43,445 nucleotides of DNA. Source: Nitrospirota bacterium (GTDB lineage Bacteria; Nitrospirota; Thermodesulfovibrionia; Thermodesulfovibrionales; JdFR-88). The notes below the pieces were generated by a model. That model saw only the letters and a program-made list of their open reading frames with translations, did not search any database and was not told where the DNA came from. Positions 11,006 to 33,955 of this stretch are shown piece by piece. The stretch is from the NCBI GenBank assembly GCA_021789935.1, contig JAJYIR010000021.1, forward strand, positions 1 through 43,445, read 5' to 3'. Every line of letters begins with the position of its first letter. The stretch's first letter is position 1. Both the position numbers and the translations under genes were made by a program.

Positions 11006-11039
11006 AAAAAAAGCCCTCTACAGGCCGGACATGGAGGGC
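11006..11039 (-). terminator. intrinsic terminator at the end of the cobamide lower-ligand operon
   Basis: On the minus strand a 6-bp stem (GCCCTC 11039-11034 with GAGGGC 11018-11013) is followed at once by seven T residues (11012-11006). The stem overlaps the cobS stop codon. It should end the bza-cobT-cobS transcript and make sdhABCD an independent unit. Confidence 0.7.
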
Positions 11040-11869
11040 AGCAGACGGAGCCACAAAAGGGCGGTAATCAAAAACGCTATCTCGGCCGCTTCCGTTATAG
11101 CGCCCAGATGGTCTCCCGTAAGCCCGCCAAAATTTCTGGTCAAAACCCTAAGGGCGGCCCGGACCGCCGCATAGAGGAAGGCAAGGAGGAACAGGAACAG
11201 GTAAACCCGTGAAGCATTAAGGGCCGGCCCGCCATGCGCAAGCGAAAGCAGGCCGAAAACGGTTAAATAGAGGCATGCCAGCAAAAAAGAGGCAAACGCA
11301 ACATCCCCGCCCCCCGTGTTACCTATGAATATCCGGCCCAGCCCGTCTTTCCTGGCTGGCTTTCCATGGAACATTGCGGGTACAGTCGCCCATTTGGAAA
11401 AGGCGGGCATCATGAAAAGCAGGGCGAAGGCAGCCCATCCGGCAAGATGGCCGGCCATCCCGATCAGGCCGCTTACAAGAACGAACTTAAGCAGAATGGA
11501 CACTGTGATCGCTATTGCCCCCATCGCGCCCACATGGCTGTCTTTCATTATTTGAAGCCTCTTTTCCCTGTCCGCTTCCGGGTCTCCGCAGGACTTGACG
11601 GATAGGGCGTCCACCGTGTCCGCCAGACCGTCCAGGTCAAACCCCCCGCTTGCAATTATATAAACGGCAAGCGCGAGGGCGCCCGCGGTATGGCGGTCAA
11701 AAAAATGCGCAAAAACAATCGCGGGCAAGGCAAGTAAAAATCCTTGCGCCGCTCCCGCCAGGGGGAAAAAAGGAACGCTCCCGGCCATGTCTTTTTCAGA
11801 GACGCCGCTGCTTATTTTTACCGGCAATACCGTGTGAAACTGGACCGCGAGCAGTATCCGTTTAAGCAA
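11018..11869 (-). CDS. cobS: adenosylcobinamide-GDP ribazoletransferase (cobalamin synthase)
   Basis: A 283-residue polytopic membrane enzyme that joins adenosylcobinamide-GDP to alpha-ribazole or its phosphate, the last step of nucleotide-loop assembly. The signature GGFDLDGLADTVDAL is present with its metal-binding Asp residues, followed by MKDSHVGAMGAI. About seven hydrophobic helices are visible. The gene lies 12 bases downstream of cobT as the last member of the riboswitch-controlled operon, so it acts on whatever benzimidazole the upstream genes make. Confidence 0.95.
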   Translation of the reverse strand: MLKRILLAVQFHTVLPVKISSGVSEKDMAGSVPFFPLAGAAQGFLLALPAIVFAHFFDRHTAGALALAVYIIASGGFDLDGLADTVDALSVKSCGDPEADREKRLQIMKDSHVGAMGAIAITVSILLKFVLVSGLIGMAGHLAGWAAFALLFMMPAFSKWATVPAMFHGKPARKDGLGRIFIGNTGGGDVAFASFLLACLYLTVFGLLSLAHGGPALNASRVYLFLFLLAFLYAAVRAALRVLTRNFGGLTGDHLGAITEAAEIAFLITALLWLRLLPSMSGL

Positions 11870-11881
11870 AAAATCCGCCTC

Positions 11882-12943
11882 CTAATTTAATATCTCATCA
11901 GAGACGCCGGCCTCTTTGAAGGTCGCCATTTCCAGGTATATCTTGAGCCCGGCCTCTATAAGCCCCATTCCAAGCGCCGCGCCCGTCCCTTCGCCAAGGC
12001 GCAGCCCCAGGTCCATGACCGGGACAAGCCCCATTTTTTCAAGCATTGCGCGATGGCCCGCCTCTACCGAGTTGTGGGAGGCGAACATATAGTCCGCCGT
12101 GGCAGGCTGCAGGGTGTAGGCAATGAGCGCCCCCGCCGTGGATATGAACCCGTCTATCACCACGGGCACCCTGTTTGACGCAGCTCCAAGCACCAGCCCG
12201 GCAATGCCGCCTATCTCCGCACCGCCCACCTTTGAAAGCACATCGAGCGCGTCCCTCGCATCGGGGGCGTTCAGCCTTATCGCCTCCTCGATTACCTTTA
12301 TTTTTCTTTCCAGTGAACTGTCCGTAATGCCTGTGCCCTTCCCTGTGACCCTGGAGACTTCCCTGCCCGTCAGTACAGCCGCTATGGCGCTTGAGGGGGT
12401 TGTATTGCCTATGCCCATATCGCCCGTGCCAAAAAGCCCGTACCCTTTTTTGGCAAACCTGTCTGCAAGCCTGATGCCGGCCTCGATGCTTTTAACCGCC
12501 TCGGAGCGCGTCATCGCGGGGCCCTTGGTGAAATTCCTGGTCCCCTTTACCACCTTGGCATCCACCAGGCCCTTCTTTTTCCCGAAATCATGGTTTACGC
12601 CCATGTCTATAACCACAACCTTTGCCCCCGCGTGGCGGGCAAGCACGTTTATCCCGGCCCCGCCCTCAAGGAAGTTATGGACCATCTGCACCGTCACTTC
12701 ACCAGGATATGCGGAAACGCCTTCATCCACCACGCCGTGGTCCCCAGCGAAGGTGAATATCACCTTTTTGCCTGGGGCAGGCGAAGCGTCTTCCGCTATG
12801 GCGACAAGCCTTTCCGCGAACTCTTCCAGCCTGCCAAGGCTTCCTGGCGGCTTTGTGAGGTTGTCCAGGCGCTTCTTTGCGATCAGGAACCATCGCCGGT
12901 CTAAGGGTTTTATCTTTTCCAGCGTTGCCTTAAGCAATTTCAT
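11882..12943 (-). CDS. cobT: nicotinate-nucleotide:benzimidazole phosphoribosyltransferase
   Basis: A 353-residue enzyme of normal family length. It transfers phosphoribose from nicotinate mononucleotide to the lower-ligand base. Visible motifs are [66 protein letters not shown], and [11 protein letters not shown] with the presumed catalytic Glu. Start and stop overlap the radical SAM gene by four bases (ATGA). Its position directly after the benzimidazole-modifying genes indicates that it activates their product. Confidence 0.96.
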
Positions 12944-14490
12944 TTATGGCCTTCTCCTTTCATTTTCAAAAATATTCCCTCGTACGCCTCCGGCAAAAGT
13001 CTTAGTATCTCATTTTCTGCCTGGGCGGCAAGTTCCTCCGCCTTCTCAGTGCCCAGCCTTTCGCCGGACATGAGTCTTGCAAGGGAAGATTCAAAAAGCC
13101 CCACAAAAAACCCGTTTATCTCCCTGTATTTCTCCTCCGCCCCGGGCGGCGCAAAAACCCTTCCGCTCCATATGCCGTCCATCCGCGCAAAAAGGAAGTT
13201 TGCAGCTCTCCGCATAAGAAAAGCCAGATCTCCGACTTCAGGCATGCTGAAGTGTGTTACCGCCTCATATGGCTGCGTTTCGCCTTTCCGCTCACCGGAG
13301 GCATTAGCTGCGTATGCCTTTGTGCCTTTTAGCAGTATCTGGTGGTGGTTGAGCACGTTTGCCGTGACCGGAAGGTTTTCAAGGAGCCTGTTTCTTTTCA
13401 GGAACTCGAAATTTGCCCTCAGGTCTTCGAGCGTGGAGCCGGGCTCGAACATAATGAAGCCGATGTTGGGCTCAATGCCGTGCCGCCTCAGGACCTTAAT
13501 GGCTTCTTCGCCTTCCCTCACGGTAGTCATCTTTCCCATTCGTTTGAGGGATTCGTCCCTGCCGCTTTCAAGTCCCACAAGTATTTGCCTCAACCCGGCC
13601 CCGGCCAGTGCGCTGATGGAGGCCTCCTTAATATCGTTTACACGGGCCTCAATACCGAAACGAATATTTCGCTGCCCCATCAGGGAGGCCAGGCGCAGTG
13701 CCCGGTCCTGTCCGCCGGCCCCGGGGCCAAAGAAATTGGGGTCCGTAAAATAGAAATCCCGGGTAAAAACCTCGTTTTCAGCGATTATGCAGTCTATCTC
13801 CTCTACTATGTTTTCGGGGCTTCTGCCGCGCCATCTGCCGCCAAAGGAGCTTAGATGGCAGAAGGTGCAATGCCCGTAGCACCCGCGGCTTCCAAGCAGG
13901 TTCACCTCCGGAAGCCGCCGCATTGCGGAGGTGCGGAGGGGGAATGGAAGCGTGTCAAGGTCTTCTGCTGTCTCCGGCTTTAAAAAGCTTCCGTCCGGGC
14001 ACCCGCCGTCCCCGGCCATTGCGAGCCCCGGAATGTCTTTGTTTTTAATGTGCCGCCCGGAGGAAATCGCCCGCGCCAGGCTTTTGAACGTAAGCTCCGG
14101 TTCGCCAAGAAGGACGCCATCCACTGACGGGAAAATAACAGGGATGTCCATGAAGGCAAACGTGGGGTAGTACCCGTAGGCCGCTATAAAGCGAGGCCGG
14201 CATTCCTCTTTTATCTCCGAGAGAAATTGGGCAAGTGCCCTGTCTTCTCCCCAGTGATATACCATGTGCGCGCCGATGATGTCCGGCGCGAATGCCCGCA
14301 CCCTGTTTTTGATGTCCTCGTAAGACAGCCCCTCCAGATACCCCTCTACTATCTCCACCTCATGCCCTTCTTTTAAAAGCAGGGCGGCCACACAGCCCGA
14401 AAGAAGGCATGAGGAAAGGGGGGTGTTCGCGATGTCGTTGCACCGCTCGGGCATCCTGGCCCTCGGGTGCTCAAGGAGGAGTATCTTCAT
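12940..14490 (-). CDS. B12-binding radical SAM protein, BzaD/BzaE-type candidate
   Basis: Product begins [18 protein letters not shown]. Residues about 1-135 form a cobalamin-binding-type Rossmann domain. The radical SAM cluster motif follows as [13 protein letters not shown] (CX3CX2C), and [15 protein letters not shown] is typical of the barrel. About 516 residues from the ATG at 14490, which has AAGG upstream; an ATG at 14520 is possible but has no ribosome-binding site. Cobalamin-dependent radical SAM enzymes BzaD and BzaE methylate or remodel the benzimidazole ring in anaerobic lower-ligand synthesis. Position between a BzaC-like gene and cobT supports that role, but D versus E cannot be told apart here. 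Confidence 0.8.
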
Positions 14491-14529
14491 TGGACAGGAC
14501 CTTTTTTTTAACGCACGCATGCCGCTGAT

Positions 14530-16233
14530 TTAATCCAGAAGGAGCAGGGCGAAATATTTCACATATTCTCCGTAAGGGTCCCTGCCGCTTAGTGTTTTTA
14601 ATCTGATGCCGGCCCTTTTTGCGGTCTCGAAGACATCAATGCCGGCCCCTTCCATCGAGGGACGGATGTTTTCACGCTTTTTTCCGCATTTTTTCCGGCA
14701 TGAGGGGCAAAGGGAGCAGGGCCCCGCCCAGTATGAAAACGCCTTGTAAAAACCGGAGAGGAATGCCTCTTTTTCCGCCTGGAGGACTTTTAGCTGGAAC
14801 TCCCTTGCCGGCGGCTCCCCTTCAAGAAGCAAAGCCGTCTTGCAGTCCCTTATAAGGTTTTTTGTCTCTTCGTGCAGGGGGGCATGGGGCGGGCAGAGGG
14901 GTTTTTCCCCGTAATGGCCGCACCCGTGACGGCATTTTAATTGCGTCCATCCCGGCACGTGGATATCGTTTGCGCTTATGGGGACGGCCCTTCTGAAACC
15001 AAGGGCAAGGAGCCTGCCTGCGAGGGCCGCCGTTTTGTCCAGGCAGAGCTTTTGCAGCGTCTCCGGTTTTTTTGAGGCCATCAGGAGAGCCGTGTCCGAT
15101 TCCAGGGGGGCGAGTTCAGAAAAATAAAACCCCGCCTCCTTCATCTCCTTTTTAAGAGCGGAGCAGGAGAAGACCCTGCCGTTAAAGGTGTTTATGAACA
15201 TGTTGAGATCAAAGAGGGCGGCCTTTTCCGGACGGTGCTCAAGGAAGAAATCATGGACAAGCAACAGGCCGTCAGCGGAGAGGCACCGCGAGGCGTTTTC
15301 AAGGATGTGCGCCAGTTCCTTTTGGGAATAGACATGTATGATATTTGAGAGGACTATGAGGTTGAACCGTCCACCCTCATACGGCCATGGTTCAAGCATG
15401 TTGGCTGGGCACAGGTTTTTGGTTTTTGTACCTGCTTCTTTTTGTCCTGCCCCTTTTTTCCCTTTCTCAGACATTCCCTCCCGGGCCTTTGACATCTTCT
15501 TCCGGGCGATATCTATCACCTCTGGCAGGTCCATAAGCGTTGCCTTTAATGACGGAGCGTGCTCCAAAAAACCCTCGGCGATCGCACCGGAGCCGCATCC
15601 GGCATCGAGCATTTCCCCTTCAAGCGGGAAGGAACCCAGAAAAGGGAGGATCTCTTTTGCCTTTGCCCTGGCAACCCCGTCCATCGCATTTATATATTTC
15701 CGCCTTCGGCCCTCCAGCTTTTTTTCTTCGCAGGGGGGTAGAAAATCCTTCCTGCCCCCTTTTTTAAGGCAGCCCTTGAGGCCGGCCCAAGGTCCGCATA
15801 GCTCTTTCCGCCACAAGACGGAGTCCCCGAGATAACCCTCCTTCCCGGAAACCAGGTAGCGGCCGGATGCCTTCGAATTAAAATAAAATGCACCTCCGTC
15901 CGGGCCATCCGCCTTGTTGACCAGTCCTGTCCGGCATAGCGCCCTTAAAAATCTCTCCAGCGCCGCTTTTTTTATGAGCAATCTCCGGGATAAATTCTCC
16001 AGGGACATGCCTTGCGGGTCCAGCAAAGAAAACACGCCAAGCTCCACCGCGGCAAACAGCGTCTCCGAATACCAGTAAGCGGTTGCAAGGTCCTCAATGT
16101 GCTGGAAACCGGCATCCTGGGGGTCGTGTTCCGCCACGGGGATGGTTTTCCTCACGGGCGGCGGGACGCCGTTTGCCTGCCGCTTGGCCCGCCCCGTTGC
16201 GCCTGCCATGGAGGTTTTTGCCGGAAAAGTCAT
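14530..16233 (-). CDS. BzaC-like O-methyltransferase fused to a DUF2284 metal-binding domain
   Basis: 567 residues. Residues about 45-120 are a winged-helix dimerisation domain (YWYSETLFAAVELGVFSLL). Residues about 180-385 are a SAM methyltransferase of the Methyltransf_2 type, with LDAGCGSGAIAEGFL, LMDLPEVIDIA, LSNIIHVYS and LLVHDFFLE. Residues about 400-567 match DUF2284: KCRHGCGHYGEKPLCPPHAP, then GPCSLCPSCRKKCG and RPSMEGAGIDVFETAKRAG, many cysteines suggesting a metal or Fe-S site. BzaC O-methylates 5-hydroxybenzimidazole in known pathways. The gene starts 3 bases after bzaF, supporting the same role. The function of the DUF2284 half is unknown. Confidence 0.82.
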   Translation of the reverse strand: MTFPAKTSMAGATGRAKRQANGVPPPVRKTIPVAEHDPQDAGFQHIEDLATAYWYSETLFAAVELGVFSLLDPQGMSLENLSRRLLIKKAALERFLRALCRTGLVNKADGPDGGAFYFNSKASGRYLVSGKEGYLGDSVLWRKELCGPWAGLKGCLKKGGRKDFLPPCEEKKLEGRRRKYINAMDGVARAKAKEILPFLGSFPLEGEMLDAGCGSGAIAEGFLEHAPSLKATLMDLPEVIDIARKKMSKAREGMSEKGKKGAGQKEAGTKTKNLCPANMLEPWPYEGGRFNLIVLSNIIHVYSQKELAHILENASRCLSADGLLLVHDFFLEHRPEKAALFDLNMFINTFNGRVFSCSALKKEMKEAGFYFSELAPLESDTALLMASKKPETLQKLCLDKTAALAGRLLALGFRRAVPISANDIHVPGWTQLKCRHGCGHYGEKPLCPPHAPLHEETKNLIRDCKTALLLEGEPPAREFQLKVLQAEKEAFLSGFYKAFSYWAGPCSLCPSCRKKCGKKRENIRPSMEGAGIDVFETAKRAGIRLKTLSGRDPYGEYVKYFALLLLD

Positions 16234-16236
16234 GTT

Positions 16237-17538
16237 TTATTTTTTATCGGAGTCCGCCATGTTTTTTTCAAACATGCCCCTCAGCATCTCGTTTGCGCAA
16301 AACCGGCCGCACATGGTGCAGGAGTGTTCGTCCCCGTCGCCCCTTTTTTTCTTTATCTCCAGCGCGCGTTCCGGGTCTATGGCCAGCCGGAACTGTGCAT
16401 CCCATTTCATGTCCCTTCTTGCCTTGGACATCTCTTTGTCCGCGTCCATCTTTTTGTGCTTTATCATGTCGCCAACATGGGCGGCAATCCTGGCCGCTAT
16501 CACGCCCTCCCGCACATCCTCCGGATAGGGCAGCCCAAGGTGTTCACTGGGGGTCACATAACAGATGAAGTCCGCCCCGTAGGAGGAGGAAAGCGCCGCC
16601 CCTATGGCGGCGGTTATGTGGTCGTAGCCCGGGGCGATGTCGGTAGTTATCGGGCCCAGCATGTAAAAAGGCGCCCCTCCGCTCATCTTCTTCTCCATTA
16701 TGATGTTGGCCTCTATCTCGTTTATCGGGATGTGCCCCGGGCCCTCCACCATCGTCTGGCAGCCTGCCTGTCTTCCCGTTTCGGCCAGTTCGCAGTTTAT
16801 GAGCAGTTCCTGTATCTGCACCCTGTCCGTGGAGTCATGGATGGCCCCGGCGCGGAACCCGTTTCCGAGACTAAGGACGGTGTCGTGCTTTTTAAGTATC
16901 TCCACCACGCGGTCAAAGTGCTCGTACAGGGGGTTTTCCATGTTGTTATGCTCCATCCATGCGACCATATAGGAACCTCCTTTTGAGACCAGACCTCCGT
17001 AGCGGTAGTGCTGGCGCCGCAGCATCTCGACCGTTTTCCTGTTGATGCCGCAATGGATGGCCATGAAGCCCACGCCTTCCTCGCACTGTTTTTCCGTGAT
17101 CTCGAACAGCAGCTCGGCCGGCATCTTGACCGCCGCGCCGTACTTTTCAATGGCGGCGGCAAAGGCCTCATAGAGCGGCACCGTGCCGATAGGCAGGGCC
17201 ACGGAGTCCATCACGGCCCGCCTTATGGTGGCTATGTCTCCGCCCACGCTCAGGTCCATAAGGGTATCGGCACCGTATTTTTCGGCAACCCGCGCCTTTT
17301 CCACCTCCATCTGCGCGTCCGCGATAGATGTGGATGTGCCTATGGAGGCGTTTACCTTTGTCCTGAGCCCCCTGCCAATCCCTGTTATTTTGCCCTTCCT
17401 GTGCAGGTTTGCCGGGACAACAGCCTGGCCCGCCGCCACGCGCTCTCTCAGTGTCTCCGCATCGATCCCCTCATCCTTCGCGACCGTCTTTATTTCCTCT
17501 GTCACCTCGCCCGTCAGGGCGCGTTCAAGCTGTGTCAT
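16237..17538 (-). CDS. bzaF: 5-hydroxybenzimidazole synthase, ThiC paralogue
   Basis: A 433-residue ThiC-superfamily radical SAM enzyme: GRGLRTKVNASIGTS, DLSVGGD, SKGGSYMVAWMEHNNMENPL, MVEGPGHIPINEIEANI, GPITTDIAPGYDHIT, YVTPSEHLGLP. The C-terminal cluster motif CTMCGRFC has CX2CX3C spacing, whereas the E. coli ThiC motif has CX2CX4C. ThiC proper makes thiamine pyrimidine; the BzaF branch converts aminoimidazole ribotide to 5-hydroxybenzimidazole. First gene behind a cobalamin riboswitch (not a TPP one) and followed by methyltransferase, radical SAM, cobT and cobS, it is very probably BzaF. AAGGAGGT provides a strong ribosome-binding site. Confidence 0.87.
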   Translation of the reverse strand: MTQLERALTGEVTEEIKTVAKDEGIDAETLRERVAAGQAVVPANLHRKGKITGIGRGLRTKVNASIGTSTSIADAQMEVEKARVAEKYGADTLMDLSVGGDIATIRRAVMDSVALPIGTVPLYEAFAAAIEKYGAAVKMPAELLFEITEKQCEEGVGFMAIHCGINRKTVEMLRRQHYRYGGLVSKGGSYMVAWMEHNNMENPLYEHFDRVVEILKKHDTVLSLGNGFRAGAIHDSTDRVQIQELLINCELAETGRQAGCQTMVEGPGHIPINEIEANIIMEKKMSGGAPFYMLGPITTDIAPGYDHITAAIGAALSSSYGADFICYVTPSEHLGLPYPEDVREGVIAARIAAHVGDMIKHKKMDADKEMSKARRDMKWDAQFRLAIDPERALEIKKKRGDGDEHSCTMCGRFCANEMLRGMFEKNMADSDKK

Positions 17539-17611
17539 TTCAAAAGACCTCCTTCCGAATGGAAAACGGATTTGTTTTTATTTTTTGCTTTTTGCTTTTT
17601 CAAAATAATAA

Positions 17612-17655
17612 AAGGTCCCCAAGGCGAAATCCTTTGCCTTCGCCTTGGGGACCTT
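17612..17655 (-). terminator. leader terminator between cobalamin riboswitch and bzaF
   Basis: A near-perfect inverted repeat: 17614-17628 pairs with 17639-17653 over 15 bp around a 10-nt loop. On the minus strand it is followed by TTTTATTATTTT. It lies about 75 nt downstream of the aptamer and about 75 nt before bzaF, the right place for a transcriptional expression platform. Confidence 0.85.
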
Positions 17656-17730
17656 CGTATTTTACCGTTTTTGACTTTGACTTCAAAAAAATTTCCTCCG
17701 CGGGAAACGGGCATAGCCCTTTTTTGGGTC

Positions 17731-17910
17731 CAGGCAGGTCTTCTGACTCAGGTTCTCCCTACTTGCCGGGCCTTCCCGGGGTCTTTTTCATGCCCCAGTG
17801 GCCAAAAGAATCGGCTTTCGTCCCCTTTACAGCGGCGGGACCGCTCCCGGTTTGGATCTCAAACGAGAAAAAATCCTTACGGGATTCCCTTTTAAGCCTT
17901 GCGGCGCCTG
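17731..17910 (-). ncRNA. cobalamin riboswitch
   Basis: On the minus strand the conserved blocks appear in order: P1 half CAGGC (17910-17906), AAAAGGGAAT, CCGGGAGCGGTCCCGCCGCT, GGGACGAAAGCC, GCCACTG, and the terminal GAACCTGAGTCAGAAGACC followed by P1' GCCTG (17735-17731). This is the textbook B12-box aptamer. It should repress the bza-cobT-cobS operon when an adenosylcobamide is abundant, together with the downstream leader terminator. Confidence 0.97.
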
Positions 17911-17934
17911 AACAACAACATATTTTCCACTTAC

Positions 17935-31872: not shown

Positions 31873-31901
31873 TTGAAATTATCATGCTTTTCAGGTATCC
31901 T
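31873..31901 (+). promoter_or_regulatory. sigma70-type promoter of the selenoprotein - hemB unit
   Basis: TTGAAA (31873-31878), a 17-nt spacer and TATCCT (31896-31901). Start expected at about 31908, with GGAGGT at 31925-31930 before the ATG. Confidence 0.6.
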
Positions 31902-31935
31902 AAATCTATATCGAAACAGGCTTCGGAGGTACTGA

Positions 31936-32262
31936 ATGTTCACTATAACGGATGCCGCCGCGAACAAGGCGAAGGAGATGTTAAAGGCTGAGGGTAAAGA
32001 GGCCTTTGGCCTCAGGGTTTACGCTGTGCAAGGTGGTGGCTGAGGCTGCGGACCTTCCTATGGAATAGGAATAGAAGAGCAGGCTGGCCACGATGATGAG
32101 GTTGTGGAGAAAAACGGGCTGAAGGTCTTTATCGACGCCAAGACCTCCGGCGGTTTAAGCGGTATGCAGATGGATTTTGTGGAGGAGAAGGAAGGCTCGG
32201 GTTTCGTGCTCAAGGGCCAATCGGCCGGACCCGCGCACGACTGTTCAAGTTGCGGGCATTAA
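31936..32262 (+). CDS. HesB-like selenoprotein (in-frame UGA at codon 36)
   Basis: 109 codons with a perfect ribosome-binding site (GGAGGT, five bases before ATG). The frame continues through TGA at 32041-32043. Before it: [17 protein letters not shown] and [12 protein letters not shown]; after it: [33 protein letters not shown] and C-terminal HDCSSCGH. This is the HesB/IscA A-type scaffold, with UGA at the position of the first conserved cluster Cys (GG-C-SG). A HesB-like selenoprotein family is known, so Sec insertion is the natural reading; a SECIS-like hairpin follows. The C-terminal pair is CX2C rather than the IscA CXC. It ends 10 bases before hemB, so the two are probably co-transcribed. 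Specific function of Sec forms is unknown. Confidence 0.88.
32046..32082 (+). promoter_or_regulatory. bacterial SECIS-like hairpin
   Basis: Directly downstream of the UGA, TTCCTA (32055-32060) pairs with TAGGAA (32066-32071) around the 5-nt loop TGGAA. A lower CTGC/GCAG stem (32046-32049 with 32079-32082) extends it. The apical loop starts 17 nt after the UGA and has G as its second base, which fits the loose bacterial SECIS model. Confidence 0.7.
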
Positions 32263-32272
32263 TGAACGGCTG

Positions 32273-33250
32273 ATGTTCCCCTACCAAAGACCAAGAAGAC
32301 TAAGGGCGAACGAAACGATCCGGAGGATGCTGAGGGAGACATCCCTCAGCCCTTCGGATTTTATTTATCCCCTGTTCGTCGTGGAAGGCAAGGGCGTGAG
32401 AAAAGAGATATCTTCCATGCCCGGATGCTACCAGGAATCCCTGGATAAGGCCACCGAAAATGCCAGGGAGGCGGTGTCTCTGGGAGTCCCCGCCGTCATT
32501 CTCTTTGGCATACCGGAGCACAAGGACGAAAAGGGCTCGGGGGCCTATGACGATAACGGCATAATACAGCGGGCCATAAAAGAGCTTAAAAATGCCATTC
32601 CCGAACTCTACGTCGTTACCGACGTGTGCCTCTGCGAGTACACTGACCATGGGCATTGCGGTGTTATCAGGAACGGCGATGTCGTAAACGATGAGACTGT
32701 GGGCTTCCTGGTGAAGGAGGCCATTTCGCACGCCCGCTCCGGGGCCGATATGGTGGCCCCTTCGGACATGATGGACGGAAGGGTGGGCGCGATAAGGGAA
32801 GCCCTGGACGATGAGGGTTTCAGCAACGTCCCGGTTATGAGCTATGCGGCCAAGTACGCCTCCGCGTTTTACGGCCCTTTCAGGGAGGCTGCGGAATCTA
32901 CTCCCCAGTTCGGGGACAGGCGGTCCTATCAGATGGACCCTCCCAACAGGAGAGAGGCCATGAGGGAGGTTGCCCTGGACATAGAGGAGGGCGCCGACAT
33001 CATCATGGTGAAGCCGGCTCTTGCTTACCTGGATATAATTGCAGACATCAGAGGTGCTTTTGACGTGCCGGTTGCGGCCTATAGCGTAAGCGGCGAATAC
33101 AGCCTCATAAAGGCGGCAGGCCGGTTGGGATGGATAGATGAAAAGCGCGTCATGATGGAGTCCCTCACCGCGATAAAGCGCGCCGGGGCCGATCTCATTC
33201 TCACGTATTTCGCAAAAGACGCGGCAAAGCTCCTGAACGGTCAGAGATAG
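32273..33250 (+). CDS. hemB: delta-aminolevulinic acid dehydratase (porphobilinogen synthase)
   Basis: 325 residues from ATG 32273; the open frame further upstream overlaps the selenoprotein gene and is not used. It condenses two aminolevulinate molecules to porphobilinogen in tetrapyrrole synthesis, feeding haem and cobamide. Metal-site Cys in [14 protein letters not shown], catalytic Lys in [14 protein letters not shown] and [10 protein letters not shown], and [12 protein letters not shown] are all present. Immediate upstream neighbour is the HesB-like selenoprotein. Confidence 0.97.
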
Positions 33251-33364: not shown

Positions 33365-33865
33365 TCACTTCCTCCGCTCTATCTGCCCACGGAGTTCGCC
33401 TCCCGGGTTTGCTTTCGTATGGATGTTCACATAAGTGCCGCCCGTTTCCATCTCATGAGCCAGGTCTTTGACGGTTTTACCTTTTAGCCGTCCCATCAGG
33501 TCTTTTTTGGTGATGGTCCCCCTGGCCAGAATGCCGCTGAACACGCCTTTTTTTTCGGGGCCCATAAAGAGCATCGCCACTGGAGGCCCGCTTTCCCCCT
33601 TTGCGCCAAGGTGTATATGTGCCATGGTCACATCCTTGAGGTCTTTGACGTGCAGGACATACCGGATTTCACCTGTCTTCGTGTTTATGAAGAACCTGGC
33701 ATTTCCGGTGGCGCTGGTCGTCACGGGGGGCTCCTCCGAAGCGCCCGAAAGCTTTGCAGACAAGGACATCTTTCCCTTGGCAAACGCGATGGCAGAAAAC
33801 ACCAGGAGCACGGCTGCCGCGTACACGGCCACTACCCGAATTCGCGAAAACTTTCCTTTTTCCAT
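33365..33865 (-). CDS. exported CHRD-domain protein
   Basis: Start at ATG 33865, six bases after GGAGGGA (the frame is open to 33886). A signal peptide (about 1-29, ending AIAFA) is followed by one CHRD domain: MSLSAKLSGASEEPPVTTSATG, GEIRYVLHVKDLKDVTMAHIH, and C-terminal YVNIHTKANPGGELRGQI. CHRD domains are extracytoplasmic; in bacteria their function is not known. The gene stands alone. Confidence 0.9.
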   Translation of the reverse strand: MEKGKFSRIRVVAVYAAAVLLVFSAIAFAKGKMSLSAKLSGASEEPPVTTSATGNARFFINTKTGEIRYVLHVKDLKDVTMAHIHLGAKGESGPPVAMLFMGPEKKGVFSGILARGTITKKDLMGRLKGKTVKDLAHEMETGGTYVNIHTKANPGGELRGQIERRK

Positions 33866-33955
33866 CTTTTTCCCTCCGTTATTCACGCCGGTTTTTCTAA
33901 CTATCTTTTAGTATAGATTCCGGATAGTGTCAACAGAAGAGCCCTTGGGATGCTT

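Follow-up and report, generated by a model that had tools for sequence, protein, structure and literature searches.

A hemB-linked A-type iron-sulfur carrier gene of Nitrospirota with a predicted selenocysteine at the loop-cysteine position

INTRODUCTION

Does an in-frame UGA in a short gene of a Nitrospirota bacterium mark a broken gene, or is it read as selenocysteine (Sec)? The question was raised by an initial annotation, made from the sequence, of positions 31936-32262 of contig JAJYIR010000021.1 (GenBank assembly GCA_021789935.1) as a HesB-like selenoprotein gene; the window referred to below is the whole stretch of 43,445 nucleotides that was analysed. Sec in IscA-like proteins has already been published (PMC1794560; PMC13188914), and the accessible part of the 2026 inventory lists HesB-like proteins with the motif UxGP (PMC13188914).

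RESULTS

Reading frame and neighbourhood

The frame at 31936-32262 on the forward strand comprises 108 codons, is interrupted solely by the TGA at codon 36 and terminates in TAA (32260-32262); translation gives a read-through protein that ends in ...DCSSCGH. A standard open-frame search did not return the gene in one piece. Ten of the 27 genes taken in the window end in TGA, so the standard code is in use and UGA is not globally reassigned. The features of the locus are as follows.

31873..31901, forward strand: sigma-70-like promoter TTGAAA-N17-TATCCT (pattern match only; similar boxes seen by eye upstream in several relatives)
31925..31929, forward strand: Shine-Dalgarno sequence GGAGG, 6 nt before the ATG (sequence; a GGAGG-like site is also present in relatives)
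31936..32262, forward strand: sec-hesB gene, for a 108-residue IscA/ErpA-like A-type carrier with predicted Sec at residue 36 (translation, profile matches, alignment, synteny, fold match)
32041..32043, forward strand: in-frame TGA (predicted Sec36) in the column of the first cluster-ligand Cys (sequence and alignment; retained in ten same-family genomes including that of the window)
32055..32071, forward strand: candidate bSECIS hairpin UUCCUAU-GGA-AUAGGAA of 7 bp, loop at 32062-32064, 18 nt past the UGA (geometry search, codon conservation)
32242..32253, forward strand: C-terminal CSSC (Cys103, Cys106), candidate further cluster ligands (translation, alignment)
32273..33250, forward strand: hemB (porphobilinogen synthase), start codon 10 nt after the TAA, probable operon partner (526 bits against a cut-off of 297; synteny)

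The ribosome-binding site is the one that the initial annotation had described, and the sec-hesB gene and hemB are probably co-transcribed.

Elsewhere in the window (11018-17926, reverse strand) a Cobalamin riboswitch (17716-17926) lies upstream of a ThiC-family gene, after which come genes for a methyltransferase/DUF2284-like protein and a B12-binding radical SAM protein, cobT and a cobS-like gene. Although the encoded protein passes the ThiC cut-offs and does not reach that of BzaB, the riboswitch and its neighbours hint at anaerobic lower-ligand synthesis. The C-terminal part encoded by 14530-16233 (reverse strand), an open frame containing no UGA, matches the double-selenoprotein families MbdU and ArsM_DUF2284_UU far below cut-off.

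Protein family and predicted fold

The sequence on both sides of the TGA belongs to the HesB/IscA family, as had been proposed: Pfam Fe-S_biosyn matches residues 2-103 of the read-through protein at 7.2e-16, spanning the UGA, and the score against the A-type carrier model TIGR00049 is 73.3, above its cut-off of 58.8. The label 'HesB-like' needs refining. The protein is an A-type carrier of the ErpA/IscA kind, linked to hemB, but it falls below the cut-offs of both the curated HesB selenoprotein model TIGR01911 (34.1 versus 66.35) and NF038090 (IscA_HesB_Se; 47.7 versus 85), as do its relatives; it also lies under the ErpA, IscA and SufA equivalog cut-offs.

The predicted structure has the IscA fold (mean pLDDT 78) and is weak near residue 36, with residues 34-36 below 50. 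Its top PDB match in Foldseek is E. coli IscA 1r94 (E 2.6e-7, TM 0.76/0.84), other solved structures matched being E. coli IscA 1s98, SufA 2d2a, HI1723 2apn, 1x0g (IscA with a [2Fe-2S] cluster) and Aquifex AQ_1857. In A-type carriers the loop Cys is a cluster ligand, and the usual C-terminal form is CxC (CGC). The UGA had been placed at the first cluster-ligand Cys of IscA, and two alignments agree with this: in MAFFT codon 36 shares a column with the first Cys of the GGCCGPSYG orthologues, and in a profile alignment that column is the loop Cys of HI1723, AQ_1857 and E. coli IscA. With Sec as the predicted loop residue and CSSC (CxxC) at the C terminus, the signature of a loop Cys plus CxC is absent; the motif around the UGA is U-G-C-G-P (UxCGP), not the UxGP given for HesB-like selenoproteins in the accessible part of the inventory.

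The window protein thus resembles two known groups and differs from each. With the curated HesB-like selenoproteins (TIGR01911/NF038090; PMC1794560, PMC13188914) it shares the IscA/HesB family, a predicted Sec in the region of the first ligand Cys and a downstream SECIS-like element, but it is set apart by its scores, by UGCGP in place of the listed UxGP and by the hemB linkage. With the A-type carriers (TIGR00049; ErpA, IscA, SufA) it shares the family-level score and the predicted fold, but it has a putative Sec for the loop Cys, a two-residue insertion at that point and CxxC instead of CxC.

Sec/Cys exchange and synteny among relatives

Homologues were found in 123 of 149 genomes of the same order; most of the named relatives are MAGs of Nitrospirota, several of them carrying the label Thermodesulfovibrionales. 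Nine genomes of the window's family, including the window itself, have a single TGA at codon 36 in the motif GGUGCGPSYG, and in a tenth (G006) the UGA at codon 36 stands in the variant GGUGGGGYSYG, so that the codon is retained in all nine close relatives found and across six genera, counting the window's. A phylum-wide search of 396 genomes at a strict threshold returned matches from this family only. Most other families of the order have Cys (GGCCGPSYGMD). Another family, f6, has the predicted Sec in eleven genomes (GGGUSTSYGLD; loci L045, L046 and L048-L056), whereas six genomes of its genus g32 have Cys (GGGCSPSYGLD or GGGCAPSYGLD); as judged from these alignments, the two form a clean Sec/Cys pair. 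Comparison with Cys homologues, which had been seen as a check on the initial reading, therefore reveals an exchange at codon 36 and not a lone mutation.

The gene next downstream is hemB at every Sec locus of both families and at nearly every Cys locus tested that had enough flank, which puts the Sec and Cys forms at the same operon position; among the Cys loci tested for a flanking hemB, none was detected beside L026, L099, L104 and L107. Also common to this neighbourhood in the window's family are mnmE, ksgA, an HD-domain gene, a CHRD-like gene, radC and comEC. The CHRD-like protein gene (33365-33886, reverse strand, in the window), conserved beside hemB in this family, matched nothing in NCBIfam at the threshold applied. 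Downstream of the UGA, with the hairpin set aside, unsaturated pairs give a dN/dS of about 0.1-0.36; the downstream half of the gene is thus under purifying selection.

The hairpin downstream of the UGA

When the last A-U pair is counted (7 bp), the hairpin begins 11 nt after the UGA and its apical loop GGA lies 18 nt after it; counted as in the initial annotation it has 6 bp and a loop UGGAA at 17 nt, and by either count a hairpin fitting a bacterial SECIS is present. The published bSECIS model (PMC13188914) specifies a loop of 3-9 nt with G in its first two positions, a stem of 4-16 bp, a distance of 16-37 nt and an MFE of -7.5 or lower. The window hairpin lies within these limits in geometry and energy alike, with its GGA loop, 7 bp, 18 nt and -13.5 kcal/mol for a 45-nt stretch. 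This 45-nt fold is only mildly better than that of shuffles (z -1.7), the isolated 17-nt hairpin reaches only -4.8 kcal/mol, and the 45-nt folds of two relatives, at -7.2 and -7.3, narrowly miss the limit of -7.5 set by the model. Rfam at a permissive threshold gave chance hits only and no SECIS family at the locus.

Codon usage is more telling. A 7-bp stem of such geometry appeared in 0.65% of 20,000 synonymous recodings. Across eight distinct sequences all eight hairpin-encoding codons (40-47) are identical, as against only 1 of the 37 other conserved-residue codons outside codons 37-48 (Fisher P = 3.0e-7, taking codons 40-48 as the element and so counting the variable codon 48 inside it); codons 37-39, ahead of the stem, are variable. 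Outside the element pS ranges from roughly 0.35 to 1 between pairs, and these large synonymous differences mean that the hairpin was not frozen for lack of time. It is invariant within the close clade, and the diverged relative G006 has a shifted 8-bp hairpin with the G-containing loop CGGGU. Cys orthologues have varied codons at the hairpin site and, under the same rule, stems of 2-5 bp with energies of -2 kcal/mol or weaker, that is, no comparable hairpin.

Sec machinery

Three genes for Sec synthesis and decoding are present in the genome above cut-off: selA (contig C23, 594 bits), selB (C22, 367.8 bits) and selD (C40; L066, G000:C40; 356 bits). The selD gene itself has an in-frame UGA at the active site (SSCSGUAAK), with a SECIS-like 9-bp stem and loop GGU at 33 nt. 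The fourth gene whose presence had been proposed as a check, selC, did not turn up in the contigs, whether sought with a covariance model, with patterns, by DNA search or by running ARAGORN on candidate loci. Hits to RF01852 proved to be tRNA-Ser, -Leu, -Arg and -Trp by ARAGORN (150 of 277 candidates scored); anticodon/T-arm patterns and same-genus selC as a DNA query gave nothing convincing in these contigs, and no tRNA lies in the regions that match the sequences flanking selC in relatives. ARAGORN did find tRNA-Sec (tca) in eight of the 11 other genomes of the family, two of them of the window's genus. Since G008 has tRNA-Sec and G010, encoding an identical protein, shows none, an assembly gap is the likely reason for the missing selC, and loss in assembly is the simplest reading. 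The initial annotation would have been overturned by the absence of all Sec machinery or by alignments marking the UGA as a pseudogene mutation; the presence of selA, selB and selD and the Sec/Cys exchange speak the other way.

Other Sec genes of the order

Further predicted Sec genes of the order, together with the selD of this genome, served as controls for the hairpin, and they agree with it. The f6 carriers resemble the window gene in having the predicted Sec at the same site, hemB downstream and a loop UGGAA or UGGAG. They differ in their hairpin, which is GC-rich (UCCCC-UGGAA-GGGGA) and lies 37 nt after the UGA; ten of the 11 genes have a stem of 5-7 bp, and the Cys sister genus g32 has no such hairpin. 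An earlier placement near GGCC was dropped when the search by bSECIS geometry gave the hairpin above. In G038 (L056) the sequence yields no more than CCCC-UGGAA-GGGG, a different 4-bp stem ranking first in the search.

The order also contains LAMD-type paralogues with predicted Sec (e.g. L062 and L058, GGUGPSLAMD), which are IscA-like too. Their hairpin, UGGCUAU-GGAC-AUAGCCA at a spacing of 17, has the apical CUAU-GGA...AUAG in common with that of the window, but it is encoded by different codons and the proteins occupy a separate branch of the tree; hemB was not found beside them in about 0.5 kb of flank. They are not readily identified with the published family of HesB-like proteins, since the ones tested score below its cut-offs too. 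At L063 (G083:C143), Sec and Cys copies of LAMD type lie about 2 kb apart, and the Cys copy still has a SECIS-like hairpin in degenerate form, UGGCUAU-GGAU-AUAGUCG.

In the tree the window, f6 Sec, f6 Cys and LAMD groups each lie to one side of a well-supported branch. AU tests, on 106 columns only, gave p-AU 0.198 for the window and LAMD groups as one clade, 0.087 for window, f6 and g32 together and 0.077 for window and f6 Sec alone; with no joined Sec group rejected (p-AU 0.08-0.20), the tree is compatible with one origin of Sec or with several.

DISCUSSION

The best explanation as a whole, to which we give a probability of about 0.92, is that UGA36 is decoded as Sec through SelB and the hairpin and that the product is an A-type Fe-S carrier with Sec for the loop Cys. 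SelB with Sec-tRNA would bind the hairpin after the UGA, the ribosome would insert Sec at codon 36, and Sec36 would take the place of the loop Cys that, with two C-terminal Cys, holds the cluster or iron. The gene very probably encodes a selenoprotein, a call that draws on homology, Sec/Cys exchange, nucleotide constraint on the hairpin, Sec machinery and fold prediction, and the initial annotation of a HesB-like selenoprotein gene with an in-frame UGA thus appears right in substance. We infer insertion of Sec at codon 36 of the window gene, and a role for Sec36 as a cluster ligand or as the cluster's redox or transfer ligand. The hemB linkage suggests a client of the carrier in tetrapyrrole synthesis, linkage being a different thing from function.

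The UxC motif of nine of the ten family members would also suit a selenoprotein in which Sec36 takes part in thiol/selenol redox chemistry, for example through a Sec36-Cys38 selenenylsulfide, and does not ligate an Fe-S cluster; the inventory adds that a redox role is supposed for many selenoproteins whose function is unknown (PMC13188914). Such a role is unlikely in our view, given that G006 has no Cys38, that the f6 members have U-S-T with no Cys following and that Sec36 stands where A-type carriers of known structure have their loop Cys. The failure to find selC in the assembly could be taken to favour programmed read-through, or decoding of the UGA as another residue (Trp, Gly or Cys), with no part for selenium. 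This is very improbable beside the Cys of the orthologues, Cys being the usual exchange partner of Sec, the SECIS geometry, SelA, SelB and a UGA-containing SelD, and the tRNA-Sec of same-genus genomes. That the UGA is a true stop, produced by recent pseudogene formation or sequencing error and leaving hemB alone functional, is hardly credible, for although the gene is not one piece in a standard open-frame search and TGA is a normal stop in the genome, genomes of six genera, each assembled separately, have the same TGA at this codon, with purifying selection downstream, a hairpin frozen at synonymous sites and Sec machinery in the genome.

Decoding of UGA36 as Sec may also account for the shape of the active-site loop. 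The window group (Y-x-x-Q-G-G-U-G-C-G-P class) has two residues more than the Cys orthologues in the stretch that runs from the Tyr of the strand before the loop to GP, and the insertion surrounds the Sec, G-U-G-C-G-P corresponding to G-C-C-G-P, with one further residue before the Sec. Without those 6 nt the spacing from UGA to loop would be 12, under the model's 16-37 nt, so the insertion probably serves decoding by keeping the UGA far enough from the hairpin. A broader scenario, in which the hemB-linked carrier of Nitrospirota acquired Sec two or more times at one ligand position (in the window's family and in f6), on each occasion with a separate SECIS differently spaced from the UGA, and in which two residues were added to the loop in the window's lineage to set the UGA clear of the hairpin, we regard as evenly poised.

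Set against the accessible portions of the open-access literature, what is new here is a hemB-linked UxCGP group with predicted Sec that lies below both curated models and has a motif unlike that listed for HesB-like proteins. It would add to the A-type carriers a Sec sub-group beyond the reach of the two curated selenoprotein models, and for that reason automatic annotation will probably truncate the gene or drop it. The natural pairs of Sec and Cys orthologues at the same operon position would offer a direct way to ask what selenium does as a candidate Fe-S ligand.
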